Origin: Gammaproteobacteria bacterium
Lineage (GTDB): Bacteria > Pseudomonadota > Gammaproteobacteria > Steroidobacterales > Steroidobacteraceae
Reading direction: 5' to 3'
NCBI GenBank assembly: GCA_028293745.1
Contig: JAQGOF010000091.1
Location: 62,001 to 126,000, forward strand
Length of the DNA stretch: 64,000 nt
Positions 33,068-55,739 of the stretch are shown here, piece after piece. Each line of letters opens with the position of its first letter. Position 1 is the stretch's first letter. The notes beneath the pieces were generated by a model that had not been told where the DNA came from, searched no databases, and was given only the letters and a program-made list of their open reading frames with translations. The position numbers and the translations under genes are program-made.

Positions 33068-35203
33068 TCACTCCTGCGCCAACGTCCCAGTCTGAAGGTC
33101 GCTCTCCCCGGCGATTCCTCCAAAGGCGGGATCGCTGACGCTGTCCCGGCCGTTCTCCAGGTGCCCGGCCAAGCGTTGCAGGAAGCTGGGATCTGCGTCG
33201 GTCGTGACCGATAGATCGTACCAGCCGAAGGTCGATTTCAGCGGCCAGCGCTTTTCAATTGCCCGGCCCCGAGGCAACACATCGACCATCGACTTGTCGT
33301 CGTAAACGCTCGCGATGCTCACCGGGCAGGGAGTGTGTGCCTGGTTGGTAATGCGCAAGATGAGGGCATAGTCGTCTACGTCGTAGTGCACGTCGACGTC
33401 GAGATCAACTTTGGTGCTGCTGGAGACACTACCGCGGAAGTGCCGCAGAAAACCGTTGGGGCCGAAAACGGCAAAGTCGTACTGGCCCTGGCTCTGTGCG
33501 ACATTCCATGAGTTGGAAAGCGACTTGCCTGCTTCAACGGTGTAGGTCCAAGGCCCGTCCGAGGTATTACCTGAACGCACGTGGAAACACGCTCCGGCCT
33601 TCCCGGTATTCTTGAGCTCAATGCGGAACACACCGCTCGCGGCATTCGCCGTTCCATCAACGCGCAACTCGTAGGGTAGCGCGCGGGCGCGCCGCAATCC
33701 CGGCTCCTGTATCGGCAGAGATTGATTCGTCGGCGGAACCGGAACGTAGTCCGGATGCCTGTCGTGGTTGGTAGGAAGGTAAGCGGCAGTTTCCGGCAAT
33801 TCGACCGGCGTGGCATTGGGGTTCGCGAAATTGAAGGCCGACGTGAGGTCGCCGCAGACTGCGCGGCGCCACGCGGTGATATTGGTCTCGATCAGGCCGG
33901 AATGCTGCGGAGCAAAGCGCCGCTCGAGAAAGCGGATGAGCGAAGTGTGATCGAACACCTCGGAACAGACCCAGCCGCCCTTGCTCCAGGGCGAGACCAC
34001 GATCATTGGCACGCGGACGCCCAGACCATAGGGGCCGCGCGGATCGCTTGCAGTGCCGGGGAAGATTTCGTCGCTTGCGTCAACGGTCGAGGCACCCTCC
34101 GCTGCCGATCGCGGCGGCGTTGGTGGGACTACGTGATCGAAGAGGCCGTCGTTCTCATCGTAGGTAACGAACAGGGCCGTCTTGCTCCACACTTCGGGAT
34201 TGGACGTGAGCGCATCGAGCGCTTGCGCAATGTACCAGGAGCCATAGTTAGACGGCCAGTTTCCGTGTTCGGAAAACGCTTCCGGGGCAACGATCCACGA
34301 AACCTGCGGAAGCCGATCGTTGCGGACGTCATCCCGCAAGATGTCGAACAGCGCATCGAACGGCGTGCCCGGCACGGCAATGTTGGTTCCATTTCGAGCC
34401 TTTTCGTACAGCGGGCTGCCGGGTAGCGCGTTCTGATATTGGTGGAAATACAGAAGCGAGTTGTCCCCATAGTTGCCTATATAGGCGTCACTGGTCCAAC
34501 CCCAGAAGCCGGCGGCGTCCAGCCCCACGCCGCTATCCTGGTAAATTTTCCACGAGATGCCGGCTTGCTCCAGGCGCTCCGGATAGGTGGACCAGTCATA
34601 CCCCGCCTCGGCATTGTTGATGACCGGCCCGCCGCCCCGGCCATCATTGCCCACCCAGCCGGTCCACATGTGGTACCGATTCGGGTCGGTCGGGCCCAAC
34701 AGCGAGCAATGGTAACCGTCGCAGACGGTAAACGCGTCCGCCAGCGCGTAGTGAAAAGGGATGTCGCGCCGTGTGAAGTACGCCATCGTCGAGCGCCCTT
34801 TGTTCGGCACCCACTGGTCGTATTTGCCACCGTTCCACGCCGCGTGTGTATCCGACCACCCGTGCGCCAGGTCTTCCAGGAACTGCAGGCCAAGATTGTC
34901 CGCAGTCGGGTGGAATGGCAGGAGGTAGCCGCTGCCATCAGGCTGATACCACACCGGCCTTCCCGACGGGAGGTTAACCGGCCGCGGGTCGCCGTAGCCG
35001 CGCACGCCCCGCAGCGTGCCGAAATAATGATCGAACGCGCGGTTCTCCTGCATAAGAAAGACGACATGTTCAACGTCCTTGATCGTGCCGGTACGGCTGT
35101 GCGCAGGCACGGCAACCGCCCTCTCGATGCTCTTGGTAAGTGCTGAGGTGAGCGCGGTTCCGCTCATGAGACGCAGGAAAGCTCGGCGGTCGACGGGCAG
35201 CAT
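33068..35203 (-). CDS. Tat-exported phosphocholine-specific-type phospholipase C
   Basis: 711 residues. The twin-arginine signal VDRRAFLRLMSGTALTSAL is followed by the acid phosphatase/phosphoesterase domain starting IKDVEHVVFLMQENRAFDHYFGTLRGVRGYGDPRPVNLP. DENDGLFDHVVPP and GLGVRVPMIVVSPWSKGG follow. Two C-terminal DUF756-type beta domains (about 505-590 and 600-690) are typical of bacterial PlcN/PlcH enzymes. It would hydrolyse phospholipid head groups outside the inner membrane and could supply phosphate or lipids. AAGGAG stands upstream of the ATG. It is divergent from the adenosine deaminase gene. Confidence 0.92.
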   Translation of the reverse strand: MLPVDRRAFLRLMSGTALTSALTKSIERAVAVPAHSRTGTIKDVEHVVFLMQENRAFDHYFGTLRGVRGYGDPRPVNLPSGRPVWYQPDGSGYLLPFHPTADNLGLQFLEDLAHGWSDTHAAWNGGKYDQWVPNKGRSTMAYFTRRDIPFHYALADAFTVCDGYHCSLLGPTDPNRYHMWTGWVGNDGRGGGPVINNAEAGYDWSTYPERLEQAGISWKIYQDSGVGLDAAGFWGWTSDAYIGNYGDNSLLYFHQYQNALPGSPLYEKARNGTNIAVPGTPFDALFDILRDDVRNDRLPQVSWIVAPEAFSEHGNWPSNYGSWYIAQALDALTSNPEVWSKTALFVTYDENDGLFDHVVPPTPPRSAAEGASTVDASDEIFPGTASDPRGPYGLGVRVPMIVVSPWSKGGWVCSEVFDHTSLIRFLERRFAPQHSGLIETNITAWRRAVCGDLTSAFNFANPNATPVELPETAAYLPTNHDRHPDYVPVPPTNQSLPIQEPGLRRARALPYELRVDGTANAASGVFRIELKNTGKAGACFHVRSGNTSDGPWTYTVEAGKSLSNSWNVAQSQGQYDFAVFGPNGFLRHFRGSVSSSTKVDLDVDVHYDVDDYALILRITNQAHTPCPVSIASVYDDKSMVDVLPRGRAIEKRWPLKSTFGWYDLSVTTDADPSFLQRLAGHLENGRDSVSDPAFGGIAGESDLQTGTLAQE

Positions 35204-35358
35204 GAGTTGCTCCTTGCGCCGTCAATGAGAGGAAGGCGCTTGATTGTTCAAAAGGCCGTGCGCCGCAATTTGGACCAATGCCTTTGCAATCGCATGACAA
35301 CTGCGTTTCGGCGAATTCGCGGTTATTCTCGTACTGCCAAGCTATTCGAGGCTCCCAG

Positions 35359-36786
35359 ATGCGAATTCGCCCATGGATCATCGGCCTGTCCCTGACCCTG
35401 CTCGCCTCGATCGGCAACTCCCGCGCTGCCGAGCGCTGGTTCGAGGAGTTGAAGGCAACCGCCACTCCCGTACAGCTCTACACATTCCTCTATGCACTAC
35501 CCAAGGGCGGCGATCTGCACAACCACCTGGGCGGGTCAGCCCGGTCCGATTGGCTCTGGGCTGCCGCCCTCGCCCAGCAGGAAAAGGGCTACACCTACTA
35601 CACCAAGGTCCGCATCGAGAATTGCGCGGGCTATGGAACAGATGAGTTCGGCCGTAATCCGTACCTGCTGTTGTTCAAGAACCTGCAAGGCTCCGACTAC
35701 GAGAAGCTCGACTCGTGTCAAAAGTCCGAATACAAGCGGCTGCAGGACCTCAACGAGCCCGAGCATGCCGCCTGGCTGAACAGTCTGCGGCTCGACACCC
35801 CGCACGAGGGCCGCGACGAGTTCTTCGAAGCACAATGGCGCCGCATCGGCGCCCTTCTGGAGAACCCCTACCTCGTCTGTGAGATCCTCTATCGGAACAT
35901 GGATGCGTTCGGAAAGGAAGGCCTCGCCTACCTCGAGACCCAGGCGGAGCTCGATGGGCTTCGCAAGTCCGACGGCTCTGCATTCACGACCGCTGAAGTC
36001 GCCACGATCTTCAGGCAGGAGCTCGCCAGTCCGCGCGCGAAGGCAACCGGGGTGGAGGTGCGATTCCAATATGCATTGCTGCGTTTTGGCCCGCATGCGG
36101 AGCAGCGCCTGCGAGACCTTTACGCCCTCGTCGATCAGTACCGTGATCTGTATGTTGGGGTGAACATGGTCGGCCGCGAAGACAACGCGAAGGGCTATCC
36201 GCTGCGATTTCTGCCGGTACTGCGCGAGCTGCGCAAGCGGTATCCCGATATCAACCTGTCCATACACGCCGGCGAAATGGATGAGCCCGACTTTCACGTC
36301 CGGGATACCCTGCTGCTCGGTGCCAAGCGCATCGGACACGGAGTGAACCTCATCTGCGACCCCGAAACCATGGTGCTCATGCGCAATGGGCCCTACATGG
36401 TCGAGATCAACCTCATCAGCAATCTGTTGCTGGAATACGTAGCGGACTTCTCCCAGCACCCTTTCCCGGAGTACGTGCGCGTCGGCATCCCCGTCGCCCT
36501 ATCAACGGATGACCGCGGCATGTGGGACTCCAACCTGACCGATGAATATTTCGTGGCCGTGCACGAATTCAATCTGTCCTGGGAGGAGTTGGTGCAGCTC
36601 GGCCGCAACTCGCTCAAATTCTCGTTCGTGGACGACCCGACCAGGCAACGGCTGCTGGCGGCATACGAGAAACGCGTGCAGTCCTTCGCTCAGCAATTCC
36701 GGAAAGACCGCTGGTCCTCACTGCATGAAGTCAAGCCGGTGAGTTACCTCTTCATGTGCCATCACTATCAGATCTGCCTGCAATGA
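35359..36786 (+). CDS. Secreted adenosine deaminase (ADGF-like)
   Basis: 475 residues. A signal peptide (WIIGLSLTLLASIGNSRA) is followed by the amidohydrolase barrel. It has the zinc-binding HNH (54-56, GGDLHNHLGG), SIHAGE (301-306) with the catalytic Glu, GHG (326-328) and STDD (382-385). Adenosine deaminase converts adenosine to inosine, usually in the cytosol; the export signal puts this one in the periplasm or outside, like the growth-factor-type enzymes. The ATG at 35359 gives the signal peptide. Its stop overlaps the next start (ATGA). It converges on the purine uptake operon, so it probably prepares purine nucleosides for cleavage and import. Confidence 0.9.
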   Translation: MRIRPWIIGLSLTLLASIGNSRAAERWFEELKATATPVQLYTFLYALPKGGDLHNHLGGSARSDWLWAAALAQQEKGYTYYTKVRIENCAGYGTDEFGRNPYLLLFKNLQGSDYEKLDSCQKSEYKRLQDLNEPEHAAWLNSLRLDTPHEGRDEFFEAQWRRIGALLENPYLVCEILYRNMDAFGKEGLAYLETQAELDGLRKSDGSAFTTAEVATIFRQELASPRAKATGVEVRFQYALLRFGPHAEQRLRDLYALVDQYRDLYVGVNMVGREDNAKGYPLRFLPVLRELRKRYPDINLSIHAGEMDEPDFHVRDTLLLGAKRIGHGVNLICDPETMVLMRNGPYMVEINLISNLLLEYVADFSQHPFPEYVRVGIPVALSTDDRGMWDSNLTDEYFVAVHEFNLSWEELVQLGRNSLKFSFVDDPTRQRLLAAYEKRVQSFAQQFRKDRWSSLHEVKPVSYLFMCHHYQICLQ

Positions 36787-37691
36787 AAGACGTCAAGCCC
36801 TGGGTCATCGCAGGCCTGGGCGAACAGGGCTTTGCTGCCCTCGCGGAAGGAATGCCTGCCTCGCAGGTCTGGTCACTGCTGCTCAGTGTGATCGAGCGCA
36901 GGTCAATGAGCCGCACGCCCGCGACAGTCCTGCAACAGTGGGAAACTGATCGCTTCGTACTTCCCGCTCCGGTCGATCAACGGACGTTCGTGGAACTGGA
37001 CAGCCACCTGTTGGCGGCAGCAAAAGGCTTCGAGGCGTTGGAGCTATCTCCCCTGGCGCCCCTCGCGGCCTGTTCGAGCGTTGCACTCACGAGTCAGAAC
37101 CGGACAGTCGCCACGATCCGGGGAACCGAAGTCGTATCCGATCCCACCAACGTCCTGGCGCTCGAAAGCGCCCGCCGTTTGCGGCAGGACTCGCGACAGG
37201 TGGTGCGACTGGCAACTTGCCATCGCTGCGTGCGCGCGCAGCCGTTCCCCAAGCTGCCCGGTTTCGCGGCACACTTTCGCATCTTCTGCATGACCACCGC
37301 CGGACGCGAGACCAAGGATCGCGCATTTCTCACCACCGCCCTGGTCGAACACATTCAAACGCACTTGAGTGCGCTGGACCGGTTGGAAAAGCACGGTTAT
37401 CACTTTCGCGAACGGCACTTGCAAATCCTCGCCACACCCGGGAACGAAGCGCTGAGCTCCCGCATCGCGGCTGCGGTTCGCAACGTGCCCGTCTCGACCA
37501 GCCCGCTGAAACAGGGTTATTACGACGGATTGCGATTCAGAATTGACGTCGGTGGCACCGCGAATGAGGCGATTCCGCTGATCGATGGCGGCGCTTTCGA
37601 CTGGCTGCGCAAGCTCACCTCCAATCAGAAACTGTCGTTGGTCGCCAGCGGCATGGGCTCGCAGTTGGCAGCCCACTTGTTCCGCGCGTGA
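36783..37691 (+). CDS. Unknown protein resembling a class II aminoacyl-tRNA synthetase core
   Basis: 302 residues, no signal peptide. I cannot name the function. Several stretches look like a degenerate class II synthetase/HisZ core: a motif-2-like RLATCHRCVRAQPF...HFRIFCMTTAG (143-174), LIDGGAFDWLRKL (266-277), and a motif-3-like LVASGMGSQLAAHLFR (286-301). A conserved-looking segment LSPLAPLAACSSVALTSQNRTVATIRGTEVVSDPTN (88-123) precedes them. The start codon overlaps the adenosine deaminase stop, so the two are co-translated although one is exported and this one is not. The relation to tRNA enzymes is a pattern-based inference. Confidence 0.68.
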   Translation: MKDVKPWVIAGLGEQGFAALAEGMPASQVWSLLLSVIERRSMSRTPATVLQQWETDRFVLPAPVDQRTFVELDSHLLAAAKGFEALELSPLAPLAACSSVALTSQNRTVATIRGTEVVSDPTNVLALESARRLRQDSRQVVRLATCHRCVRAQPFPKLPGFAAHFRIFCMTTAGRETKDRAFLTTALVEHIQTHLSALDRLEKHGYHFRERHLQILATPGNEALSSRIAAAVRNVPVSTSPLKQGYYDGLRFRIDVGGTANEAIPLIDGGAFDWLRKLTSNQKLSLVASGMGSQLAAHLFRA

Positions 37692-37724
37692 ACAGCTATG
37701 TCGGGAATGACACTCGCGCTCGCA

Positions 37725-38573
37725 TCACAGCAACTTCACCAGGTGCAACGTAAATCTCGCCGCCTCTCGCGCGGCAATCGGCCCCAAACGTAAATAGTCA
37801 TCGTTGGGAGCCTCTTGCGCCACGTTGCTGCCGGCGCGCACGACCAAGTACGGTACGCCCAACGTTTCACAAACGTGCCCGAGCGGCGCGGACTCCATCT
37901 CCATGATGTCAGTCTGAAACAGACTGCGCAGCGACTCAATCCGCTCCTTGGTCACGCCAAACAGGTCGGACGAGGAGACTACGCCGCGCCGCACGCTGAC
38001 ATGATAGGTAGCACCATTCGCGGTCACTTCCGGCCCCTGGTAGCTCGCGATGGCGCGGTCTGCGATAGCCAGCAGGGCGGCTGGTGGTGAAAATGCGTTC
38101 TCCACCTCGTTGCCGTTCACAGGGCCATTCATCGGGCGATAGACCATGCCGGTGCGAGTCAGGCTCCCATAGTCATGTTCGTGCGTTACCGTGGCAACGA
38201 TGACATCACCCGTACGCAACGCGAGATTGATACGTGCGCCCGTCCCGCTCATGACGACGACCCTGGGCTTGAATTCGCTGATGAACAGCGTCGTCGTCAT
38301 GCCTGTGAACGTCTTGCCGATGCCGGTGATGGCCACCACTACGTTCTTGCCGGCCAGCTTGCCGCGAAAATACGGAATACCCCACAAATCGCTCTTCGGT
38401 GGATTGCCCATGGCCTCGGTAAGCAAGCTGATCTCTTGCGGTACCGCGCCGAGAATCACGATGGTGTCCGTAGCTTTGTAGTGCGCAGGCTGTGGCGGCG
38501 GCTCACCGCCCAACGCCGCACTCACCTGCAGCGCCAGCATCAAAATGACGTACCTGATTTGGGCTCTCCTCAT
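37725..38573 (-). CDS. Exported nucleoside phosphorylase/nucleosidase-like enzyme with altered catalytic Asp
   Basis: 282 residues. A signal peptide (QIRYVILMLALQVSAALG) precedes an MTA/SAH nucleosidase-like fold: VILGAVPQEISLL, the GIGKTFTGM phosphate/ribose loop, VVVMSGTGA and the ribose-binding EMES (225-228). In MTA/SAH nucleosidase the catalytic Asp sits 23 residues after the second Glu (RAISD); here the residue is Asn250 (RAGSN). Asn at this place is known from 6-oxopurine-specific phosphorylases, so inosine or guanosine is a reasonable substrate. It is the last gene of the receptor-nucleosidase-permease-deaminase operon; its ATG follows the deaminase stop by one base. Confidence 0.82.
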   Translation of the reverse strand: MRRAQIRYVILMLALQVSAALGGEPPPQPAHYKATDTIVILGAVPQEISLLTEAMGNPPKSDLWGIPYFRGKLAGKNVVVAITGIGKTFTGMTTTLFISEFKPRVVVMSGTGARINLALRTGDVIVATVTHEHDYGSLTRTGMVYRPMNGPVNGNEVENAFSPPAALLAIADRAIASYQGPEVTANGATYHVSVRRGVVSSSDLFGVTKERIESLRSLFQTDIMEMESAPLGHVCETLGVPYLVVRAGSNVAQEAPNDDYLRLGPIAAREAARFTLHLVKLL

Positions 38574-38574
38574 T

Positions 38575-39945
38575 TCAGCGGTCGGTCTCACGAATCATGT
38601 CGTCTGCCAGGCGCCGGGTTTGCTGCAACAATCGCGGCAACTCGACGGTGGTCAGACACCCGCGATCCACGACTCTGCGTCCATGGATGAAGCTGTAATC
38701 CACTGCATCGAGCTGACACAGAATCAGCGCAGCCACGGGATCGTGCTCAGCACCGGCAAGCGCCGGGCGATCGAGGTTGATCGCGATCAGATCGGCGGAC
38801 ATCCCGGGAGCTATGCAGCCGATGTCATCCCGGCCGAGTACCTGGGCGCCCCCGAGTGTCGCAATCTCCAAAGCCTCCCTTGCAGTCATCGCTGCGGCAT
38901 CCAGTGCCTGCACGCGCGCCAACAGCAGGGCCTGACGGGCCTCATGAAAGAGATTCGTCGCGTCGTTCGACGCAGCTCCGTCTGTTCCAAGCCCGACTGG
39001 AACCCCGGCGTTGCGCATCTTGCGCACCGGCGCAATGCCACTCGCCAACCGCATGTTGCTGCACGGACAATGAGCAACACCTGTGCCGGTGCTGGCAAAC
39101 TTTTCGATCGAAGGATCGCTGAGCCACACGCAGTGTGCGTGCCAGACGTCCGACCCAAGCCAACCCAACGACTCGGCGTAGTCGCCCGGAGTCAGGCCAA
39201 ACTTTGACAGACTGTAGTCAACGTCGGCCTTATTCTCGGCAAGGTGGGTGTGCAGGCGCACGCCCGGATAACTGCGTGCCAGTTCCGCGGATTCGCGCAT
39301 GAGATCGCGAGACACCGAGAACGGCGAACAGGGCGCGAGCGTGATGCGAGTCATCGCATGCCGCGAGTTGTCGTGGAAAGCCTCGATCACGCGCCGGCTG
39401 TCATGCAGGATGTCAGCCTCGTCCTCTACGAGGGAGTCCGGAGGCAGACCACCCAAACTCTCCCCGACACTCATGCTGCCCCGGCTTGCATGGAATCGCA
39501 GCCCAACATCCCGCACGGCGCGTATCTCCTCGTCGAGAGTCACGTCATTGGGAAAAATGTAGAGGTGATCGCTTGCGGTAGTGCATCCGGAGAGTATCAG
39601 CTCGGCGGCGCATAACTGCGCGCTCGCGTAGACCCCTTCGGACGTCAGCCGGGACCAGATCGGATACAGCGTTTTGAGCCAACCGAACAGATCGACGTTC
39701 TGCGCGGCCGGGATCACCCGCGTGAGCGTCTGATAGAAGTGATGATGAGTGTTCACGAGGCCAGGAAGCACCACGTGCCTGCCGTTCAGATCGAGTACCT
39801 GGTCGGCGCTGGCCGGCAAGTCAGCGGTCCTACCCACCCGCTCGATGATGTGATCGCGTATCAGAACTCCGGCATCACGCAGCTCCTCGCGCGCAGCATT
39901 CATCGTGACCAGGGTGTGAATGTTCTTCAGGAGAAGCGTGGTCAT
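38575..39945 (-). CDS. 8-oxoguanine deaminase-type amidohydrolase
   Basis: 456 residues of the amidohydrolase superfamily. The metal ligands are in PGLVNTHHHFYQTLTR, the histidine of HTHLAE, the histidine of WHAHCVWLS, and the Asp of GLGTDGAASND. TTASDHLYIFP matches 8-oxoguanine deaminases rather than plain guanine deaminases or TrzN/AtzB. The enzyme would turn 8-oxoguanine (or guanine) into urate (or xanthine) in the cytosol. The ATG at 39945 overlaps the permease stop (ATGA). Its place behind a purine-type permease supports a purine substrate. Confidence 0.87.
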   Translation of the reverse strand: MTTLLLKNIHTLVTMNAAREELRDAGVLIRDHIIERVGRTADLPASADQVLDLNGRHVVLPGLVNTHHHFYQTLTRVIPAAQNVDLFGWLKTLYPIWSRLTSEGVYASAQLCAAELILSGCTTASDHLYIFPNDVTLDEEIRAVRDVGLRFHASRGSMSVGESLGGLPPDSLVEDEADILHDSRRVIEAFHDNSRHAMTRITLAPCSPFSVSRDLMRESAELARSYPGVRLHTHLAENKADVDYSLSKFGLTPGDYAESLGWLGSDVWHAHCVWLSDPSIEKFASTGTGVAHCPCSNMRLASGIAPVRKMRNAGVPVGLGTDGAASNDATNLFHEARQALLLARVQALDAAAMTAREALEIATLGGAQVLGRDDIGCIAPGMSADLIAINLDRPALAGAEHDPVAALILCQLDAVDYSFIHGRRVVDRGCLTTVELPRLLQQTRRLADDMIRETDR

Positions 39946-41294
39946 GACCGCTCTCCTGGTAAAACCGCGTTGAGGAGCAAGGCGCACAGCCCGCCCGTAG
40001 CGATTCCCGAGGACAGCGTATTCTTGAGGAGCGGCGGAAGTGCCTGGAGCAGCTCGGGAACGAAGGTAACGCCCAGTCCGAGGCCCAGAGAAAGCGCGAG
40101 GATGATGGAGTTGCGGCGATTCATGGCTACTCGCGCGAGAATACGTACTCCGGATGCCGCTACCATTCCAAACATGATCAGGGTGGCGCCCCCCAACGCG
40201 GCCGGTGGAAGTGCCTGAACGACGATTCCCACAGCCGGCACCAGTCCCAGCACCATGAGCATGCCACCGATGAAGATACCCACGTGTCGGCTCGCGACAC
40301 CGGTGAGCTGGATGACACCATTGTTCTGCGCAAAGGTTGTGCTCGGAAAGGAATTCAGGCACGCGCCTACGGCGGAGTTGATACCGTCGGCGAGCAAGCC
40401 GCCCTCGAGGCGCCTGAAGTAGCTGGGGCCCGAGATTGGCTGTCCGGTTAAGGTCGAGGTTGCCGTGAGATCACCAATCGATTCCATCACCGTGATGACG
40501 TACATGATGGCGAACGGCACGACCGCTGAATACTCGAATCGAAATCCATACCGAAACGGCACCGGCACAGTCACAAGAGGTAATCCGTGGATGGCGCCGA
40601 GGTCGATGAGCCCCAGCAGCGCCCCTGCGCCATAGCCCACGCACAGGCCCAGCACGATCGACAGCATCCGCAGGTGCCGCGACGCACAGTTGTTGAATAT
40701 CAGGATTGCCGCGATCACCAGGAACGCCAGCCCCAGATTCTGCAGGCTGCCGAAGGTGCCGCCGGCTTTTGCGCCGAATCCGCCGCCCACATTCGTTGCG
40801 CCCACCTGCAGCAGCGTGAGCCCTATCAGGGTGACCACGGTGCCGGTAACGATTGGCGTGATAATGACACTCGCGCGGCGAATGCAGCGGCTGGCTGCGA
40901 TCACGACGAAAGCGCCGGCAAAGCAGAGGCCGAAGACAGTGCCCAGCGCCTGCTGCGGGGTTGCCCCACTCGCCATTACAACACCGGCCGTTGTGATAAT
41001 CGGCGCAATGAAGGTAAAACTCGTTCCCTGAATGCTCAGCAGCCCCGAGCCGACCGGACCCCAGCGGCTGGTTTGCAGTATCGTTGCGGCGCCCGAGACA
41101 AACAGTGACATGCTGACCAGGTAGGCCGTGTCGTCCGCGCCGAGCTTGAGCGCACCGGCCACGATCAGCGGTGGCGTGATGATCCCAACGAAAACCGCGA
41201 GCACATGCTGGAGCGCGACAAACAGCGTCTCGCGCAGAGGCGGCCGGTCATCGAGACCATAGATGAGATCCGGACTCGCCGCTTCGAGGCTCAA
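39942..41294 (-). CDS. NCS2-family purine/xanthine-uracil permease
   Basis: 450 residues, about fourteen membrane segments. It has the nucleobase-ascorbate transporter signature QNNGVIQLTGVASR, the SIQGTSFTF loop in the third helix, and MYVITVMESIGDLTATS with the conserved substrate-binding Glu. It carries a free nucleobase into the cytosol with protons or sodium. The start is a TTG at 41294, ten bases after the nucleosidase stop, with no good Shine-Dalgarno site, so translation may depend on coupling. Adjacent nucleosidases would produce its substrate in the periplasm. Confidence 0.9.
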   Translation of the reverse strand: MSLEAASPDLIYGLDDRPPLRETLFVALQHVLAVFVGIITPPLIVAGALKLGADDTAYLVSMSLFVSGAATILQTSRWGPVGSGLLSIQGTSFTFIAPIITTAGVVMASGATPQQALGTVFGLCFAGAFVVIAASRCIRRASVIITPIVTGTVVTLIGLTLLQVGATNVGGGFGAKAGGTFGSLQNLGLAFLVIAAILIFNNCASRHLRMLSIVLGLCVGYGAGALLGLIDLGAIHGLPLVTVPVPFRYGFRFEYSAVVPFAIMYVITVMESIGDLTATSTLTGQPISGPSYFRRLEGGLLADGINSAVGACLNSFPSTTFAQNNGVIQLTGVASRHVGIFIGGMLMVLGLVPAVGIVVQALPPAALGGATLIMFGMVAASGVRILARVAMNRRNSIILALSLGLGLGVTFVPELLQALPPLLKNTLSSGIATGGLCALLLNAVLPGERS

Positions 41295-41304
41295 GTTGGA
41301 GCGG

Positions 41305-42390
41305 TCACTTCGGCAGCGGTGGCATCTTGTCCCGGTAGACAGGCCATTTTTTCAGGAGTTCCTCCACCACGGCGGAACCCACGCGGTAGGCCGACTCGAC
41401 GGAAGCATCGAGGCCTGAATAGCCTTCGTTTTCCTTCTGCATGTTCTCGGCGGCAGTCACTCCTGGAGGAGGCATGGAGTAGTTGCTGGCAGTGCGCAGC
41501 ACCAGGACCCGATCCTTGTTGACCTTGCCTGCAGCGCCCAGGTAAGTCAGCGCTACGAGCGTGCCGCTGTCCTCCATTGCAGTCGTAACAAAGTTGCCTT
41601 CACCGTGAGTCCAGTAGCTCACCCAGTGATTCGCCCACTCGTTGAGCAACTTCCCGTGCCAGAAAGTCATGGAGGCGAGATTGTCGCCCTTCAGAACGAA
41701 AGGCGGCTTCTGCGCATTGGGATAGCCCTTGTACCGAGCGCGGGAACGCTGCAGCTGCGGACTGTCCCCCAGATCGATGCTCCGCGTGAGCTCATAGGCC
41801 CACTCAACCAGCGCGGGCTGGAGACGGAACACCTGCCCCTCGGGCGGCTTTGCCTCCGGGTCGTAGGGACGCTTGGAGTCCAGAGGGAAGTATCCGGTCG
41901 GCCAGTCCGGAGGTATCTCCCGGGCATCGATCTCGTGCGCAAGGTCCCCATCCACCACATACTGCGCCCACGCCGCCGAACCGATCGAAGCATCCTCCGG
42001 GTCCACACCGGCGATACCCGCCACCACCCAGTAGGCATGCGAGAGGTCGAACCGGGGATCCATCCCCAGTTCCATCACCGCGGTCGCCGAGTTCGCAGTC
42101 CCCTCCCCGGTCACCATCCCCAGCACGCCCGTCTTGTCATTGAAGAACAAGTCGTGGTGGTGGGCAAACGGCAGGCGGGTGTCCAGTTTCTGGCGTGCCT
42201 TCCAGAGTTGAAACTCGCCCGCCTTGTCACCGGCATCCGCACCGATTTCAAACATCGTCACGACGACGACTTTCACCTCGATGGGCTTCACCGTGGCGGC
42301 CTCGGCACAGGCACCACCGCCACCGCCAATACCGGCAGCGGCGAACCAGATACCCGCGGTTGCAGCCGCAAAGCGGCAGACATTACGCAT
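41305..42390 (-). CDS. Exported purine nucleoside permease (NUP)-family protein, probable nucleosidase
   Basis: 361 residues. A signal peptide ending near GGGGACAEA is followed by the NUP domain: VKVVVVTMFEIGADAGDKAGEFQLW, GVLGMVTGEGTANSATAVMELGMDPRFDLSHAYWVVAGIAGVDP and the C-terminal VLRTASNYSMPP. The family is named for a fungal nucleoside permease, but the fold is that of nucleoside phosphorylases and there are no membrane helices, so cleavage of nucleosides in the periplasm is the better inference. It starts two bases after the TonB receptor stop and lies upstream of the base permease. Confidence 0.85.
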   Translation of the reverse strand: MRNVCRFAAATAGIWFAAAGIGGGGGACAEAATVKPIEVKVVVVTMFEIGADAGDKAGEFQLWKARQKLDTRLPFAHHHDLFFNDKTGVLGMVTGEGTANSATAVMELGMDPRFDLSHAYWVVAGIAGVDPEDASIGSAAWAQYVVDGDLAHEIDAREIPPDWPTGYFPLDSKRPYDPEAKPPEGQVFRLQPALVEWAYELTRSIDLGDSPQLQRSRARYKGYPNAQKPPFVLKGDNLASMTFWHGKLLNEWANHWVSYWTHGEGNFVTTAMEDSGTLVALTYLGAAGKVNKDRVLVLRTASNYSMPPPGVTAAENMQKENEGYSGLDASVESAYRVGSAVVEELLKKWPVYRDKMPPLPK

Positions 42391-50137: not shown

Positions 50138-50911
50138 CTAGGCTGCCGCGCTCAGCTGCTCCAGCAGTGGATCGGTAATCTTTCCTGTTTGAGCCACGCC
50201 AGTGGACTGCTGGAAGGCGACGATGGCGCGTCGTGTCGCATCACCTGCAAAGCCATCGATCGCACCCGGGTTGAAGCCCCGGTAGGTCAGGTAGATCTGC
50301 ACAGCGCGGATTGTAGGATCGGGATTGTCGCCATCTGCGTAACGGTCGAAGAAATGCTCGAGCAGCCCGTCATAGTTGTTGGCCGCGAAGTTGGGGCCAT
50401 TGTAGCGACGGGCGAAACCGGGCCAGTCATGCGCTTTCAGCGTACCGATCATTTTCTGCTTGTCCAGGAAAGCAACCATCGCGCGCAGTTGATTGTCTTC
50501 GGAGGCGACCATGGCCTGGACCATGCCTTCGACGTCGGCGAAACCCGCGGGGCGGAAGTTCTCGCCCATGATCTGGCCGAGGCCCCAGGAGGCGCTCTGG
50601 AGCGCCGCGGAACGATCGCACTGTATGGCCGCATTCAGCCGGTCGAACTGGTTTGCTCCGCTGGGGCCGTAACCGCCTGCGGTGCGCTGACTGATGTCCG
50701 GATCGTCTTCATCGAAACGGTGATCCGTGAGGCGGCTGAAGACGTGACGCTCGAACAGGATCTTCGGGCGCCGATCGCGCAGATAACCGCAGCCGCTCGT
50801 TTCAACCGAAAGGACGGACCAGATCTCGGCAGCCTCGAGGCCTGCTGATTGCAGGATGTCACGAAATCCGTTGTCGGTGAGTGGGGTTCCTACCCCAATG
50901 AATTCCGTCAT
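50138..50911 (-). CDS. N-acetylmuramidase-domain peptidoglycan hydrolase
   Basis: 257 residues. An N-acetylmuramidase (DUF3380-type) catalytic domain spans about 15-185. It has SVETSGCGYLRDRRPKILFERHVFSRLT, which holds the catalytic Glu, then AALQSASWGLGQIMGENF. A C-terminal peptidoglycan-binding domain (about 195-255: IRAVQIYLTYRGFNPGAIDGFAGDATRRAIVAFQ) follows. No signal peptide is visible, as in phage endolysins, but no phage genes surround it. The ATG at 50911 has AAAGG upstream. It follows a membrane protein gene by 55 bases and could depend on it, or on lysis, to reach the wall. Confidence 0.85.
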   Translation of the reverse strand: MTEFIGVGTPLTDNGFRDILQSAGLEAAEIWSVLSVETSGCGYLRDRRPKILFERHVFSRLTDHRFDEDDPDISQRTAGGYGPSGANQFDRLNAAIQCDRSAALQSASWGLGQIMGENFRPAGFADVEGMVQAMVASEDNQLRAMVAFLDKQKMIGTLKAHDWPGFARRYNGPNFAANNYDGLLEHFFDRYADGDNPDPTIRAVQIYLTYRGFNPGAIDGFAGDATRRAIVAFQQSTGVAQTGKITDPLLEQLSAAA

Positions 50912-50966
50912 GGGACCTTTCCTCAATCGAGTGGTTTCAGCAGCGGACCTGGCCGTAGTTGGCCGG

Positions 50967-51917
50967 CTATGCAGTGGGCGTTTGATCAACGCCCTTGGCG
51001 CCGAGATAGCCTGCATGACTCACGCCCATCAGCGCGAGCAATCCGTCCTGCAGCAACGGCAGGCGGATGCCGGGCAAGTCGAGATCACCGTATGCGATGA
51101 GCTGAAATAGCTGAGTCCCATACGCAATTGCGACAACGATCGTGAAGAAGAACAACTGCAGCTTTGCGACATCGACCAGCTGGGCGTTGGCCAGCTCATC
51201 GCCCTGGAACATGTCCGTAAAGCGCGCAAAGGCGACACTGCTATTGCCGTAGAGGATTCCCTGACGGTTGCGCTCGACATCATCTGGATGCTCCTGAAAT
51301 CGCGTGGCCGCTTTCGTCACGAGCTCGTCCTTCCGGTCTGGCTCCTTGCCCTTCTTATTGCTGTTGAGAAGCGGCGTACCCACAAACGATGCGGTGCTGA
51401 TCCCCAGCAGCGCCCAGATTTGCCAATCGATCCCAATGGCCAGCGGCTGGGCAGCCGCCCCGCTGTGGATTCGTTCGAGGGCCATGACGAAGAAACCGGA
51501 AACGATCAGGCCCGTCCAGACCACGAGTTGAAAGCGCGAAAGACTCATCAACTTGCGCTCGTTGATGAAAATCCCAAGTACGCGGCCCGTGATCACCTTA
51601 CCGGTGATCAGGAAGAAGATGGCGATGAGAGCGATCACGACGAGCCAATTGGTCCCTGGAGGCAGATACCAGCCGGCAAGTGCAATCGCAACTGTAAGAA
51701 TGACCAGGGCACCTGCGGTTGCAACGGGGGCTCTCTCTGCGATGCCCGGTAGCTCGGGCGGAATGGGCTCGGTGCGCAGCGGGGCCCGCGGGGCGCCTTG
51801 CGGGAGCCCGTTCGCGCCTCCACGGGCGAGGATCACGTTGATGTCGGGCCGCGGAGCGGCCGGCACCGTAATGGGGGGTTCCGCCGTGTCCGGCACGGCT
51901 TGTTCCTGCGTTGCCAT
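50967..51917 (-). CDS. Uncharacterised inner-membrane protein
   Basis: 316 residues. A proline-rich cytosolic N-terminus (about 65 residues) leads to two close transmembrane helices (about 68-86 and 91-110), a further pair (about 130-148 and 165-182), a charged loop (SNKKGKEPDRKDELVTKAATRFQEH) and one or two helices around 245-265. I recognise no domain. AGGAG precedes the ATG at 51917; the upstream extension is a tandem repeat and was rejected. It directly precedes the muramidase gene, so it may help export or control it, but this is a guess. Confidence 0.68.
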   Translation of the reverse strand: MATQEQAVPDTAEPPITVPAAPRPDINVILARGGANGLPQGAPRAPLRTEPIPPELPGIAERAPVATAGALVILTVAIALAGWYLPPGTNWLVVIALIAIFFLITGKVITGRVLGIFINERKLMSLSRFQLVVWTGLIVSGFFVMALERIHSGAAAQPLAIGIDWQIWALLGISTASFVGTPLLNSNKKGKEPDRKDELVTKAATRFQEHPDDVERNRQGILYGNSSVAFARFTDMFQGDELANAQLVDVAKLQLFFFTIVVAIAYGTQLFQLIAYGDLDLPGIRLPLLQDGLLALMGVSHAGYLGAKGVDQTPTA

Positions 51918-51957
51918 AGTCGCTCTCCTGTTCGATCGATTTCCCGTGCTGGTGTTC

Positions 51958-52017
51958 TTGTCTCGTCGGCCCTTGTCTCGTCGGCCCTTATCTCGTCGGC
52001 CGTTGTCTCGTGGGGCG
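51958..52017. repeat. Four-copy 15-bp tandem repeat
   Basis: Four units of TTGTCTCGTCGGCCC (two exact, two with one to four changes) lie in the gap between the DNase II stop and the membrane-protein start. The gap is otherwise featureless. Confidence 0.85.
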
Positions 52018-52049
52018 CGCGCCGATGTCAGCACGCGGCGGGCGCGGTT

Positions 52050-53324
52050 TCACTCCGATGGCGCGGTCTCGCCGCGGATCAACTCACCGATGCTCGTTGC
52101 GAGCTTCTGGTCTTCGATCACGAAGAACAGTCCCCCGCGGCCGTTCTGACTCCTGGCGCAGTCCTTCGCATTCCCGCTGATGGCGCCCTGTTGATTGAGG
52201 TCGCCAAAGATCGCGAGGTTCGTAGCATTGGTCGACACACCGATCTTGGCGTGATTGCCGTCCGCAGACGGCCCCGCTTTCAAAGCGATTGGTGTTCCGT
52301 TCCATGTGCCGCTGGTCGCAATCTGGACGGCGGCAGGAGCCGTGGGAAGTCCACTATCCCAACAGTCGATGCTCGAGCTGGCGGTCGTCGTCGGGATTTC
52401 CGGTCGAGTCCACCATGTCGCGGTTCGCAGAGGCACGCCACCCAGGAGAGATGACAGCAGTTGCCAGGGCGGAACATGCAATGCGGACGGCTTTGAGACG
52501 ACCCGAACATGCGTCGAGAGCTCTTCGATCGTCGCCGTCGTACTGTTGGATTTCTGTCCCAGCTTGGCTACCAGCGCTTGCACATCAGCGGGCCCGCCGC
52601 TGCTCACGATCTGGGGATTGCCGGGATCGGTGACGATGCTTGCGTTGCCGAGCGCTTGCAGAACTTTGAGTAAGTCCTCGTGTGTCAGACTCAGCGCGAA
52701 GAAGTGCTGACTGAACTTCACGTTGTTATTCACGATGCAACCGAGGCTATTGTCGCCGTTGGTGCGCGGATGGGCGCTGCTGCCCGCGCCAGGCCAGGAG
52801 GGCGTCGTGACCTGCAGCACCAGGCCATCGCCCGCATCATTCCACACCAGCATCCCCTTGGAATGACCCCAGGGTGAGGGACACGAGTCGCCGCTGCAAT
52901 TCTGCAGGTCAGGATCCTGGTAAAACTGATCGTTCCAAACGACGTAGTGAAAGCTGCCGTGATAGATCTCATCGAACGTCGCACCAACGGGATCAGTCGT
53001 GGTGTCTCCGGAACAGCCCTCACCTTGCTGGAGTTCTGGGTGTGCGTTGCTCGCAAAGACGTACTGCTGACTGAAATTCGTATAGGGCTGGACAGCCCCA
53101 CCGAACGGACAGGCGCGCACGGCGTGAGCGGCGCAGCCCGGAAACTTGCCTGCGTTGAGTTTGAAGACAAACCACCACTGCACCGGCTGCCCCGCAGAGA
53201 CTACTGGTGTAGGCTCGTCCGCGCCTGCCGTACTCGCCAGAGCAACGGCAACCAGGAAAAGGCCGATCCGGTGCACGAGCGACACCACGCGCGAGTGCGT
53301 GCCGCCTTGGGCGAATACTTTCAT
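52050..53324 (-). CDS. Exported deoxyribonuclease II-family nuclease
   Basis: 424 residues. A signal peptide (IGLFLVAVALASTAGA) is followed by a DNase II fold: VQWWFVFKLNAGKFP at the N-terminus and both HxK catalytic motifs, His154-Ser-Lys156 (GHSKGMLVW) and His358-Ala-Lys360 (GNHAKIGVS). The family is metal-independent and cuts DNA to 3'-phosphate ends; it is best known from animal lysosomes and rarer in bacteria. Many Cys (64, 72, 104, 143, 148, 196) fit a periplasmic or secreted protein. A TGCGATAAA-N13-ACAG element lies upstream, shared with the lipase and S1/P1 nuclease genes. Confidence 0.82.
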   Translation of the reverse strand: MKVFAQGGTHSRVVSLVHRIGLFLVAVALASTAGADEPTPVVSAGQPVQWWFVFKLNAGKFPGCAAHAVRACPFGGAVQPYTNFSQQYVFASNAHPELQQGEGCSGDTTTDPVGATFDEIYHGSFHYVVWNDQFYQDPDLQNCSGDSCPSPWGHSKGMLVWNDAGDGLVLQVTTPSWPGAGSSAHPRTNGDNSLGCIVNNNVKFSQHFFALSLTHEDLLKVLQALGNASIVTDPGNPQIVSSGGPADVQALVAKLGQKSNSTTATIEELSTHVRVVSKPSALHVPPWQLLSSLLGGVPLRTATWWTRPEIPTTTASSSIDCWDSGLPTAPAAVQIATSGTWNGTPIALKAGPSADGNHAKIGVSTNATNLAIFGDLNQQGAISGNAKDCARSQNGRGGLFFVIEDQKLATSIGELIRGETAPSE

Positions 53325-53380: not shown

Positions 53381-53406
53381 CTGTGTGCAGCTCTGCGTTT
53401 ATCGCA
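53381..53406 (-). promoter_or_regulatory. TGCGATAAA-N13-ACAG element before DNase II gene
   Basis: Read toward the DNase II gene, the element starts TGCGATAAACGC and ends ACAG, 56 bases before the ATG. It matches 21 of 26 positions with the copy before the S1/P1 nuclease gene. It is the only occurrence in this 120-base gap. Confidence 0.6.
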
Positions 53407-53444
53407 ACGACACGCGCTGCTACGGCGTGCCCAGTGCCAGCCCC

Positions 53445-54554
53445 TCAGCGAGGCGCCGAAGGATGTTCTTGCGCCGCCTCGCAGGGTGTGCCCCGGGCAA
53501 TTCGGTTCGTGTTGACAATGGGGATGGCATTCGCCCCTGACAGCAACTGTTGCGCGAGATTGCCCGGAGCATAGCTCAGCCCGTCCAGGTGAAGTCTGTC
53601 GATCACGGACTGGTGGATCTGCTCGCCGTGTTGCCGGTGCTCGCCGACGGGACGGTGATATCTTCCCAGCAGCCGGTAAAGCGCGTTCATCGAATCATCC
53701 AGGGTGGAATTGAAACACGGCCGGAAATGCTCGAGGTACTCCGAATCGACCTCGAGCCCGAGGCTTTCCGCTTTTTCGACGAGCCAATGCAGTGCTTCGT
53801 TCGCGAGACCGTCAGGCGCGTACCCACCTCCGACGTTGCCATGGACACCGCAGAACCAGGTCTGCTCGAGACGGCCGGTCCAGGTGGGGGGTCGGGTCCA
53901 GAGACTGGGTTTGAAGGGAACACGCTGTTCGTCGAGTGCGAGCGCGTGGTAGGCATTCTGGACGTTCGGGTTCAGTTCGATGTCGTGATACGTGAATCGA
54001 TTGCCGTTGATCAGGTCGCCCAGCGGACCCGGTGCTCCGAGCGCACCCACCGTGTCCCAGACGCCTAGAAATTTGATGGGAGGACACGCCTTGACTTCGT
54101 GCAGATTATTGAACTTCGGGTCCGCCTTGATGGCCTCGAGATCTTTGCGGTCTTCGTATCCCTTGAAGAGCTCCGGCACGAAGAAATCGTCGCACTTCTG
54201 CAGCAGGTGGAAGTGGTGCATGAATCCGGCGAGCGTGCGGACGGTATAGGCGCCGCGGCTGAATCCAAAAAAGTAGAGCTCATCGCCCTCTACGTAGTTG
54301 TAGGCGATTGAGCGATACAAGTCGCGAATGTTGCCTTCGATACCTTCCCCGGTGGCGCCCCCGAGCAGATGATCCACACCCTTTTGAGTTCCGACGCCGT
54401 CGTGGTAAATAACGACCTGGTGGGTACCGTCACTGGCGCGCGGGAGAATGGCGCGAGCAATCTTAGTGACGTTGGTGGCGTGGCGATGCCTGGTATCGTC
54501 CTGTTGGTCACGGAAGTTCCAAGTGCCGTCTGCGCAGATTATGAGTCTTTTCAT
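53445..54554 (-). CDS. DUF2235 alpha/beta-hydrolase (putative phospholipase)
   Basis: 369 residues, no signal peptide. The DUF2235 domain covers nearly the whole protein: KRLIICADGTWN at the N-terminus, TNVTKIARAI, the nucleophile elbow LYFFGFSRGAYTVRTLAGF (GFSRG), FLGVWDTVGALG and the C-terminal WFCGVHGNVGGGY histidine region. Related domains include Tle1-type phospholipase effectors, but no secretion-system genes are present here. It is divergent from the S1/P1 nuclease gene and shares an upstream element with it and with the DNase II gene. Confidence 0.85.
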   Translation of the reverse strand: MKRLIICADGTWNFRDQQDDTRHRHATNVTKIARAILPRASDGTHQVVIYHDGVGTQKGVDHLLGGATGEGIEGNIRDLYRSIAYNYVEGDELYFFGFSRGAYTVRTLAGFMHHFHLLQKCDDFFVPELFKGYEDRKDLEAIKADPKFNNLHEVKACPPIKFLGVWDTVGALGAPGPLGDLINGNRFTYHDIELNPNVQNAYHALALDEQRVPFKPSLWTRPPTWTGRLEQTWFCGVHGNVGGGYAPDGLANEALHWLVEKAESLGLEVDSEYLEHFRPCFNSTLDDSMNALYRLLGRYHRPVGEHRQHGEQIHQSVIDRLHLDGLSYAPGNLAQQLLSGANAIPIVNTNRIARGTPCEAAQEHPSAPR

Positions 54555-54612
54555 GCGTTTCTCGTTGCTGCGACGCAGCAGTCACGCTATCGTCCGAGCT
54601 GGCTGGATAGCA

Positions 54613-54638
54613 CTGTGCGAGGAACGCGATTTATCGCA
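54613..54638 (-). promoter_or_regulatory. TGCGATAAA-N13-ACAG element before DUF2235 gene
   Basis: Read toward the DUF2235 gene, it begins TGCGATAAATCGC and ends ACAG, 58 bases before the ATG. The spacing between the two halves is the same 13 bases as in the other two copies. The left half GCGATTTATCGC is nearly palindromic. Confidence 0.6.
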
Positions 54639-54672
54639 GCCCCACAACGGCGAATGCGATTTAGCGTTGTTC

Positions 54673-54698
54673 TGCGATAAACGCCTGGCCGCAAACAG
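54673..54698 (+). promoter_or_regulatory. TGCGATAAA-N13-ACAG element before S1/P1 nuclease gene
   Basis: Begins TGCGATAAACGC and ends ACAG, 39 bases before the ATG at 54738. A related TGCGATTTAGCG lies just upstream at 54655-54666. Confidence 0.6.
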
Positions 54699-54737: not shown

Positions 54738-55739
54738 ATGCACTCTGTTCGATCCTGGTCACTCGTTGCGATTGCGATAGCTTTCATCCACCCAGCATTC
54801 GCGTGGGGTCCGGACGGACATCGCACCGTAGGGACGCTGGCGGGGAAACTGATTGCAGGGTCCAACGCGGCAACACAGGTCCAGGCCATTCTGGGCAATG
54901 AAAGCTTGGCCGACGTCGCCGTATGGGCGGACTGTGCCAAGGGCGTAAATCAGTCGACGTTCAAATACGAGCATCCGGGCGTGTATCCGGAGTGCAAGAT
55001 CTTCGAGACCCCCGCCGGGGAGGCGGCCATGGAGGATTTCGTACGCCGCAATGCCACCAATTGCCCGCTCAAACCGGGCGAGGAAATCTGCCACAAGCAG
55101 TACCACTACACGGATGTAGCGATCCAGCACCAAACCTACCTGCGTGGATTCGTGGGTACGCGCGACGATGACATCGTAGCCGCGGTTATTGCAACTACCC
55201 ACGTGCTCAAGGGAGATCCGGCGCCCGCGCCCTTCAACATCAAGGACAAAGCGGAGGCACTGCGACTGCTCGTGCACTACGTTGGTGATCTCCATCAGCC
55301 CCAGCACGTTGGTGCGGTGTATCTCGATGCACGAGGTAACGAGGTCAACCCCGATACCGGCACATTCGATCCAGGCACGGCGACGCGAGGCGGCAATAGC
55401 ATCATCGTGAAGTCAACCAAAAAGAATCTGCATGCAACATGGGATGCAGTACCTGTTTCACTGACGCCATCGCATGTGACAACGGCATGGGTAACGTCAG
55501 CGCATGCGATTGCGCCAACCAGTGGGTCTGATTTCGACTGGCCCAAGCGCTGGGCGTCTCAGTCCGTGGCGCAAGCCAACCTGGCCATGTCCACCCTCAG
55601 GTTCGGACCCCAGACCGGGACTCATTGGACCGTCGTTTTGCCTGCAGGCTACAGCGCCAAAATGAGCTCCATCAAGAAAGTGCAATTGACCCGCGGCGGT
55701 GCCCGGTTGGCGCAACTGCTCCAGGACATTTGGCCGTAG
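54738..55739 (+). CDS. Secreted S1/P1-family nuclease
   Basis: 333 residues. The signal peptide is cut to leave the N-terminal Trp that binds zinc (AFA then WGPDGHR; Trp23, His28). The other trinuclear-zinc ligands are visible: Asp65 (VWAD), His123 (YHYTD), His180, Asp184 and His186/190 (LLVHYVGDLHQPQH), and the GGNS loop (218-221) with HATWD. The family cuts single-stranded DNA and RNA and can dephosphorylate 3' mononucleotides, giving nucleosides or 5' nucleotides. GAAAGG precedes the ATG. With the DNase II it would digest external nucleic acid for the nucleoside uptake genes upstream. Confidence 0.93.
   Translation: MHSVRSWSLVAIAIAFIHPAFAWGPDGHRTVGTLAGKLIAGSNAATQVQAILGNESLADVAVWADCAKGVNQSTFKYEHPGVYPECKIFETPAGEAAMEDFVRRNATNCPLKPGEEICHKQYHYTDVAIQHQTYLRGFVGTRDDDIVAAVIATTHVLKGDPAPAPFNIKDKAEALRLLVHYVGDLHQPQHVGAVYLDARGNEVNPDTGTFDPGTATRGGNSIIVKSTKKNLHATWDAVPVSLTPSHVTTAWVTSAHAIAPTSGSDFDWPKRWASQSVAQANLAMSTLRFGPQTGTHWTVVLPAGYSAKMSSIKKVQLTRGGARLAQLLQDIWP

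Follow-up and report, generated by a model that had tools for sequence, protein, structure and literature searches.

A candidate ECF sigma-factor promoter element shared by nuclease, lipase and TPR-CHAT protease loci in gammaproteobacterial genomes

A two-part element, TGCGATAAA-N13-ACAG, occurs in three exact copies in the 64,000-nt stretch of DNA analyzed here (the window), where the copies face genes for a DNase II family protein, a Tle1-like lipase (DUF2235) and an S1/P1 nuclease (Table 1). The element is best explained as the -35 and -10 parts of promoters that would be read by one autoregulated ECF (group IV) sigma factor, encoded on contig C222 of the source genome; we put the probability of this reading at roughly 0.83. 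The motif is real, its spacing is fixed, it stands at three orthologous genes in two genomes and it accompanies an ECF locus in three genomes from two genera, and from these patterns we infer that the C222 ECF factor binds it. S1/P1, DNase II and Tle1-like (DUF2235) proteins are known families with domain matches above cut-off, and their proposed joint ECF-type control alone is new here. In this way, a promoter read off raw sequence is tied to a probable sigma factor and a regulon.

Table 1 Features of the window and of other motif-bearing loci. Positions are window coordinates unless a contig or locus is named.
Feature	Position	Strand	Details
Putative ECF-type promoter, DNase II gene	53381..53406	-	-35 TGCGATAAA 53406-53398, -10 ACAG 53384-53381; exact match
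Putative ECF-type promoter, DUF2235/Tle1-like gene	54613..54638	-	-35 54638-54630, -10 54616-54613; exact match
Putative ECF-type promoter, S1/P1 nuclease gene	54673..54698	+	-35 54673-54681, -10 54695-54698; exact match
N-acetylmuramidase with peptidoglycan-binding domain	50138..51016	-	PF11860 3.6e-55, PF01471 4.5e-11
Membrane protein behind DNase II, four hydrophobic segments	50967..52034	-	Hydropathy; no Pfam match
DNase II family protein	52050..53324	-	PF03265 5.6e-15; hydrophobic N-terminus (hydropathy)
DUF2235/Tle1-like hydrolase, predicted phospholipase	53445..54554	-	PF09994 (T6SS_Tle1-like_cat) 3.5e-76
S1/P1 nuclease	54738..55739	+	PF02265 8.5e-30; sequence matches to P1 and S1 nuclease in PDB
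Target: 271-aa protein, no assigned function	L001		Site 27 and 29 nt before ATG in the two genomes
Target: 91-aa protein (MELEDALNLGLPPHHV...)			Site 78 and 102 nt before start in the two genomes
Target: large protein with weak cytochrome-c matches, then GMC oxidoreductase			Site 31 nt before start in G009
Motif-variant cluster	G000 C222: sites 3142, 5182, 11868; G009 C22: 81222, 89131, 95127
ECF sigma-factor gene	G000 C222, L133:3604-4353; G009 orthologue, L131:7379-8032		82% identical
C13-type (legumain/caspase-like) protease	L133:9458-10261		PF01650 1.7e-07 (G000); GHGG and QCFSGG motifs by eye
Signal peptidase, ECF locus			PF10502 (G000)
TPR protein, ECF locus			Scanned in G009
Patatin, ECF locus of G009			PF01734 1.3e-06

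The preliminary description of this DNA had reported the three copies, each 39-58 bases from the start codon of its own gene, with agreement of the DNase II and S1/P1 copies at 21 of 26 positions. All of this was reproduced: the copies are exact in position and strand, ACAG lies 56 nt (DNase II), 58 nt (DUF2235) and 39 nt (S1/P1) from the start codon, and the two nuclease copies are identical at 21/26 positions (81%). The preliminary description had found no other TGCGATAAA upstream of a gene in the window; only three of the 23 occurrences in the source genome fall there, and no fourth copy of the element was found in it even with two mismatches allowed. Shuffled windows contained a mean of 0.75 matches with up to two mismatches, and at least three were reached in 3 of 100 shuffles. 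The DUF2235 and S1/P1 promoters are placed back to back with 34 nt between their -35 elements. Between them, at 54656-54666, part of the core occurs once more (GCGATTTAGCG), and the DUF2235 copy contains a near-palindrome, GCGATAAATCGC.

The hydrophobic N-terminus of the DNase II protein is probably a signal peptide, and a PDB search with this protein gave no match. The N-terminus of the S1/P1 nuclease resembles a signal peptide by eye, yet it falls below the hydropathy threshold used; hydropathy analysis found no hydrophobic segment in the DUF2235/Tle1-like hydrolase. The gene for the four-segment membrane protein begins 15 nt behind DNase II at the listed GTG, or ~130 nt behind it at a likelier ATG (MATQEQ), and is presumably co-transcribed with DNase II. 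Its end is overlapped by the N-acetylmuramidase gene, a possible further member of the DNase II operon. Elsewhere in the window (33068-42390), phospholipase-C-, adenosine-deaminase-, nucleosidase- and nucleoside-permease-like genes were recognized by eye; these lack the motif, and together with the trio they possibly form a neighborhood for scavenging nucleic acids and lipids.

The source genome (G000) is a 6.9 Mb draft of 259 contigs with 2.5% contamination, in which the window corresponds to C252:62001-126000. It was compared with G009, the one other large genome of the same genus (7.9 Mb draft, 50 contigs, 6% contamination), and the pattern written backwards served as the control for motif counts. 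TGCGATAAA occurs 23 times in G000, versus 15 for the control. It is followed by ACAG at N13 in 6 of these 23 cases; of all other spacings between 0 and 39, only N23 is seen, once. The binomial probability of at least 6 of 23 at N13 is 7.6e-11, with a background of 1/329 per position for ACAG that was measured on the window and L072-L074 only; when the three copies in the window, from which the motif was derived, are left out, 3 of 20 remain (P = 3e-5). The preliminary description had named a motif common throughout the genome and indifferent to gene starts as the outcome that would speak against it, and the scan showed the opposite. There are six exact copies in 6.9 Mb (none for the control), five of them upstream of a gene according to the automatic gene calls made for this analysis. 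The sixth (L043) is placed by an orthologue: it lies in an antisense ORF, which we judged to be spurious, 78 nt before an orthologue-supported start. Called ORFs contain 14 of the 17 occurrences of TGCGATAAA that lack ACAG at N13 (13 antisense, and some of these ORFs may be spurious); of the remaining three, two are in other positions and one is upstream. The difference in upstream position between occurrences with and without ACAG at N13 is significant with the automatic classes (Fisher p = 0.001). Because the motif is rare in G000 and its ACAG is fixed at N13, its sharing by the trio is not due to chance.

Relaxation of the pattern quickly reaches the background. Sites with up to one mismatch number 14 versus 6 in G000, so that those with exactly one mismatch (8 versus 6) are close to background, and seven of these eight overlap a called ORF. 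The corresponding counts in G009 are 10 versus 1; two of its seven one-mismatch sites overlap a called ORF and five, including the patatin site, lie outside ORFs. With up to two mismatches, the counts equal background in both genomes (70 versus 69 in G000, 87 versus 85 in G009), and 16 of 20 further two-mismatch sites fetched after selection by eye (7/56 in G000 and 13/77 in G009) overlap a called ORF. A relaxed pattern, TGNGAYRAAY-N12-ACAG, gave 16 matches in the two genomes versus 1 for the control.

Among 148 genomes including G000, 12 exact copies were found (versus 1 for the control): six in G000, three in G009 and one each in G089, G094 and G101. The three G009 copies stand at orthologues of the three non-window target genes of G000. 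At the 271-aa and 91-aa pairs the motif is intact and the sequence upstream of it differs between the two genomes. At the cytochrome pair, the motif is intergenic and reversed between the genomes (L074:9654-9679 on C154 of G000 versus L076:9502-9527 on C4 of G009), and the C154 copy (L074:9679-) therefore points away from the gene faced by its counterpart, the sole exception among the nine exact sites of G000 and G009. This C154 site points instead toward an outer-membrane beta-barrel gene (PF25183) that looks 5'-truncated and was not seen there in G009. A PsiF-repeat gene (L077:9706-10002) ends just upstream of the motif facing the 91-aa gene. The 271-aa protein has no Pfam or PDB match, and in 146 genomes it has its G009 orthologue plus two marginal partial matches.

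The expectation that orthologous promoters keep the motif was thus borne out for the three non-window copies, which are matched one for one in G009 (one reversed). For the trio, 59 other genomes offered no usable orthologues: they yielded no DNase II match except one marginal fragment, and only partial, distant S1/P1 matches in 14 of them, with no site of at least 14 bits in the loci concerned. Three S1/P1 homologues with 58-61% identity in other genomes also lack the motif. A distant S1/P1 homologue of G009 has a 12.2-bit, two-mismatch sequence nearby (L017), which was not counted as a site. The lack of the motif at these homologues argues against deep conservation at the trio. When 370 genomes across the class were scanned with Y at position 10, genomes other than G000 yielded 11 single copies against 5 for the control, a slight excess at best; nine of these copies exceed 14 bits, with a maximum of 24.4.

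The same comparison bears on the idea that the element is a dispersed repeat or an insertion target that lies upstream of genes by accident. The very rigid core with few near variants would suit such an origin. However, non-orthologous copies share no extended similarity beyond the 26 bp, the same genes carry the motif in two diverged genomes, and both direction and distance to the start codon are constrained, which makes a repeat scarcely plausible. Separately, two unrelated called ORFs on the minus strand of G000 (L073:8703 and L074:388) both begin with VSGQRPRKRS, which suggests a short dispersed repeat in this genome.

The fixed 13-bp spacing, asymmetry and directionality of the element, the short leaders behind it, and the lack of a sigma-70-like promoter around the three window copies point to a -35 element (YGCGATRRN) and a -10 element (ACAG). 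At five sites ACAG is followed by the nearest start codon after 27-31 nt, and a purine-rich Shine-Dalgarno-like run can be made out by eye in the interval. With such leaders, the transcription start could only be just downstream of ACAG. A plain sigma-70 promoter reading was dropped, as none was found around the window copies. Sites for sigma-28, LexA, CRP/FNR, PvdS and HrpX did not fit and were also dropped.

Genes that resemble histidine kinases and response regulators by eye are located near the cytochrome operon (L074:4149-7537 and L076:10366-13829). Their conservation beside the C154/C4 target in both genomes is an arrangement often seen for regulators and the genes they control, and the element might accordingly be the binding site of an activator, for example a NarL-type response regulator, acting on ordinary sigma-70 promoters. 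We regard this as improbable, since the element is asymmetric and directional without an internal repeat visible by eye, no sigma-70-like promoter accompanies the window copies, the position weight matrix (PWM) finds no site at the regulator genes within L074 and L076, and the ECF-locus copies described below would be left unexplained. A variant of the PhoB (phosphate-starvation) site was considered as well. The PhoB half-site consensus is TGTCATAAA, which TGCGATAAAY resembles; nucleases and phospholipases would suit phosphate scavenging, and the L077 site has the PsiF-repeat gene directly upstream. Nevertheless, the nine exact copies show no tandem second half-site, the window has no more Pho-box-like sequences than chance would give (11 versus 14.4 expected), and the ECF, TPR-CHAT and cytochrome operon targets do not fit, so that a PhoB site is very unlikely.

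The reading as an ECF promoter is linked to a particular sigma factor by a syntenic locus of G000 and G009, in which variants of the form YGCGATRRN-N13-ACAG sit before an ECF sigma-factor gene and its neighbors. The locus was found by looking for clusters in the background-level lists of sites with up to two mismatches, together with one one-mismatch site of G009. A nearly identical site, CGCGATGAACTCAGGA[GC]TC[AG]TGACAG, is located upstream of the ECF gene in both genomes, 436 nt from its start in G000 and 130 nt in G009; it is a two-mismatch variant in both, in the layout of autoregulation. The remaining sites of the locus precede the MSHFLTIP gene (both genomes), the TPR-CHAT gene (G000) and the patatin gene (G009); in G009, no site immediately precedes the TPR-CHAT gene. 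The locus encodes the ECF factor, a one-helix protein, the TPR-CHAT protein (~1,160 aa), a small protein, a C13-type protease, a signal peptidase and a TPR protein.

All three ECF homologues, including one from the third genome described below, exceed the TIGR02937 cut-off of 42.9 bits (52.2, 57.3 and 43.0, the last one barely), with almost the entire model covered. The Pfam model for sigma-70 region 2 scores under its own cut-off (18.9 versus 24 bits), and a profile of the three proteins matched RpoS chains only, weakly, in the PDB (E 0.003 and 0.008). By these sequence matches the protein classifies as an ECF sigma factor, that is, a sigma-70 family member with regions 2 and 4 only. The adjoining protein has one hydrophobic helix at residues 77-100 in all three genomes according to hydropathy and is probably an anti-sigma factor; the one candidate scanned belongs to no Pfam or NCBIfam family and gave no meaningful PDB match.

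G089, from another genus, carries one exact and one variant copy of the motif beside homologous ECF, anti-sigma-like and TPR-CHAT genes. Its exact copy was found before the ECF locus was known, and it therefore provides a more independent test. This copy lies 315 nt before the TPR-CHAT gene (42% identity over 905 aa), and the ECF homologue is ~2.9 kb behind that gene. The variant site (21.5 bits) is located between the ECF gene (52%) and the anti-sigma-like gene (36%), that is, behind the ECF gene and not before it, unlike the autoregulation layout of G000 and G009. When the 18-32 kb around the exact copies of G089, G094 and G101 were searched with tblastn, the ECF locus was present in G089 only. 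The suggestion in the preliminary description that one activator or alternative sigma factor controls these genes is supported in its second form, as the motif is found at the ECF locus of G000 and G009 and near the ECF homologue of G089.

It is conceivable that a different ECF factor of G000 reads the element and that the C222 ECF gene is only one of its targets. The sigma70-ECF model has 63 matches in G000, genes for ECF factors can be under the control of other sigma factors, and one or two positions of the ECF-locus copies deviate from the consensus of the window copies. Against this, the motif accompanies the homologue of the C222 ECF factor in a second genus. In addition, 30 sigma-factor loci (of 163 matches in G000 and G009) contain no site of at least 15.7 bits, the best being 14.6, and this also means that the motif is not a generic ECF promoter. 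We consider control by another ECF factor quite improbable.

The PWM was built from 15 sites, six of which come from the ECF locus. Across 11 stretches (259 kb), the 15 sites score 23.5-37.2 bits and the next best sequence 13.1, and the reversed control gave none of at least 11. Leave-one-out scores range from 15.7 to 35.5 bits and are inflated by the orthologous pairs among the 15 sites; in the window they are 23.1 for the DNase II copy, 23.0 for S1/P1 and 16.7 for DUF2235, the second weakest of the 15. Exact matches in genomes without the ECF locus, which are probably due to chance, reach 24.4 bits (L093), and some sites within genes attain 16-21 bits (L083, L137 and L143). Since such sequences score as high as some of the sites, the PWM alone proves little for any single site.

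The TPR-CHAT protein combines TPRs with a CHAT domain (PF12770, 9.6e-53), in which both His residues of RLIHxAxH and the Cys of VVLSACDTA are invariant in all three homologues and would be the catalytic residues. Its N-terminus is hydrophobic in G000 and G089 and under the hydropathy threshold used in G009; with such an N-terminus in two of three homologues, the protein is probably exported. A study on type III-E CRISPR systems describes a TPR-CHAT protease, Csx29, which cleaves Csx30, an inhibitor of the ECF-like sigma factor CASP-sigma, and motif copies of CASP-sigma in its own locus (Strecker et al., 2022, PMC10028731). The locus described here likewise links an ECF-like sigma factor to a TPR-CHAT protein and a candidate sigma inhibitor, with motif copies inside the locus. 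Unlike in type III-E CRISPR, the TPR-CHAT protein is ~1,160 aa long with a hydrophobic N-terminus in two of three homologues. It scores 16.2 bits with the NCBIfam model for Csx29, far below the cut-off of 300. The 10 ECF-locus proteins scanned with Pfam contain no Cas family, the Cas7-11 effector included, and PADLOC assigned a generic TPR model to only one of the 10. In this locus a caspase-like TPR-CHAT protease neighbors an ECF factor and the protein that probably inhibits it, and the scanned proteins give no hint of CRISPR.

The Csx29-Csx30 precedent makes cleavage of the anti-sigma factor by the TPR-CHAT protease an attractive step, and we speculate by analogy that it may occur. In a wider CRISPR-free, Craspase-like scheme, the exported TPR-CHAT protein would sense an envelope or extracellular cue and cut the anti-sigma factor, and the freed ECF factor would induce the hydrolases and the protease locus (including the C13-type protease) in a program of digestion, defense or self-lysis. 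As a whole, this scheme is tentative and rather unlikely. Should the protease indeed act on the inhibitor, a more general signaling design would emerge, with the Csx29-Csx30-sigma pathway as one instance of it.

For the ECF regulon itself, the following course may be proposed. The ECF factor would be made from its own motif-bearing promoter (positive autoregulation) and probably held by the one-helix membrane protein encoded after it; a signal, probably derived from the envelope, would inactivate this candidate anti-sigma factor, and the freed ECF factor would allow nucleases, lipases and other proteins to be made together. The two-part promoter with fixed spacing, the ECF gene beside a single-helix membrane protein, and the presence of the motif upstream of that gene in two genomes resemble ECF regulons of the sigma-E/RseA type. 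Well-studied ECF factors use promoter elements of the GGAAC/CGTC type, from which YGCGATRRN and ACAG differ. Among the papers listed in literature searches, none describes the motif as a promoter or an ECF/TPR-CHAT regulon free of CRISPR, and among the matches listed for TGCGATAAA, judged from titles and the beginnings of abstracts, none concerned bacterial promoters. On the best-supported description, this ECF regulon is new but belongs to a general kind that is already known, and it is unusual in its link to a TPR-CHAT caspase-like protease.

The preliminary description had proposed a nucleolytic and lipolytic regulon. This theme is real but partial, and the regulon is wider: its candidate members extend to the sigma factor itself, the TPR-CHAT protein, a cytochrome/oxidoreductase operon and proteins without assigned function. 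It may serve feeding on released nucleic acids and lipids, digestion of neighbors, defense or self-lysis. The strong candidates in G000 are the genes for DNase II (with a possible muramidase-containing operon), the Tle1-like lipase, the S1/P1 nuclease, the 271-aa and 91-aa proteins, the cytochrome operon or its neighbor, the ECF factor, the TPR-CHAT protein and the MSHFLTIP protein. Those in G009 are the orthologues of the 271-aa, 91-aa, cytochrome, ECF and MSHFLTIP genes together with the patatin gene, and four one-mismatch sites (L082, L085, L086 and L087) mark weaker candidates in that genome.
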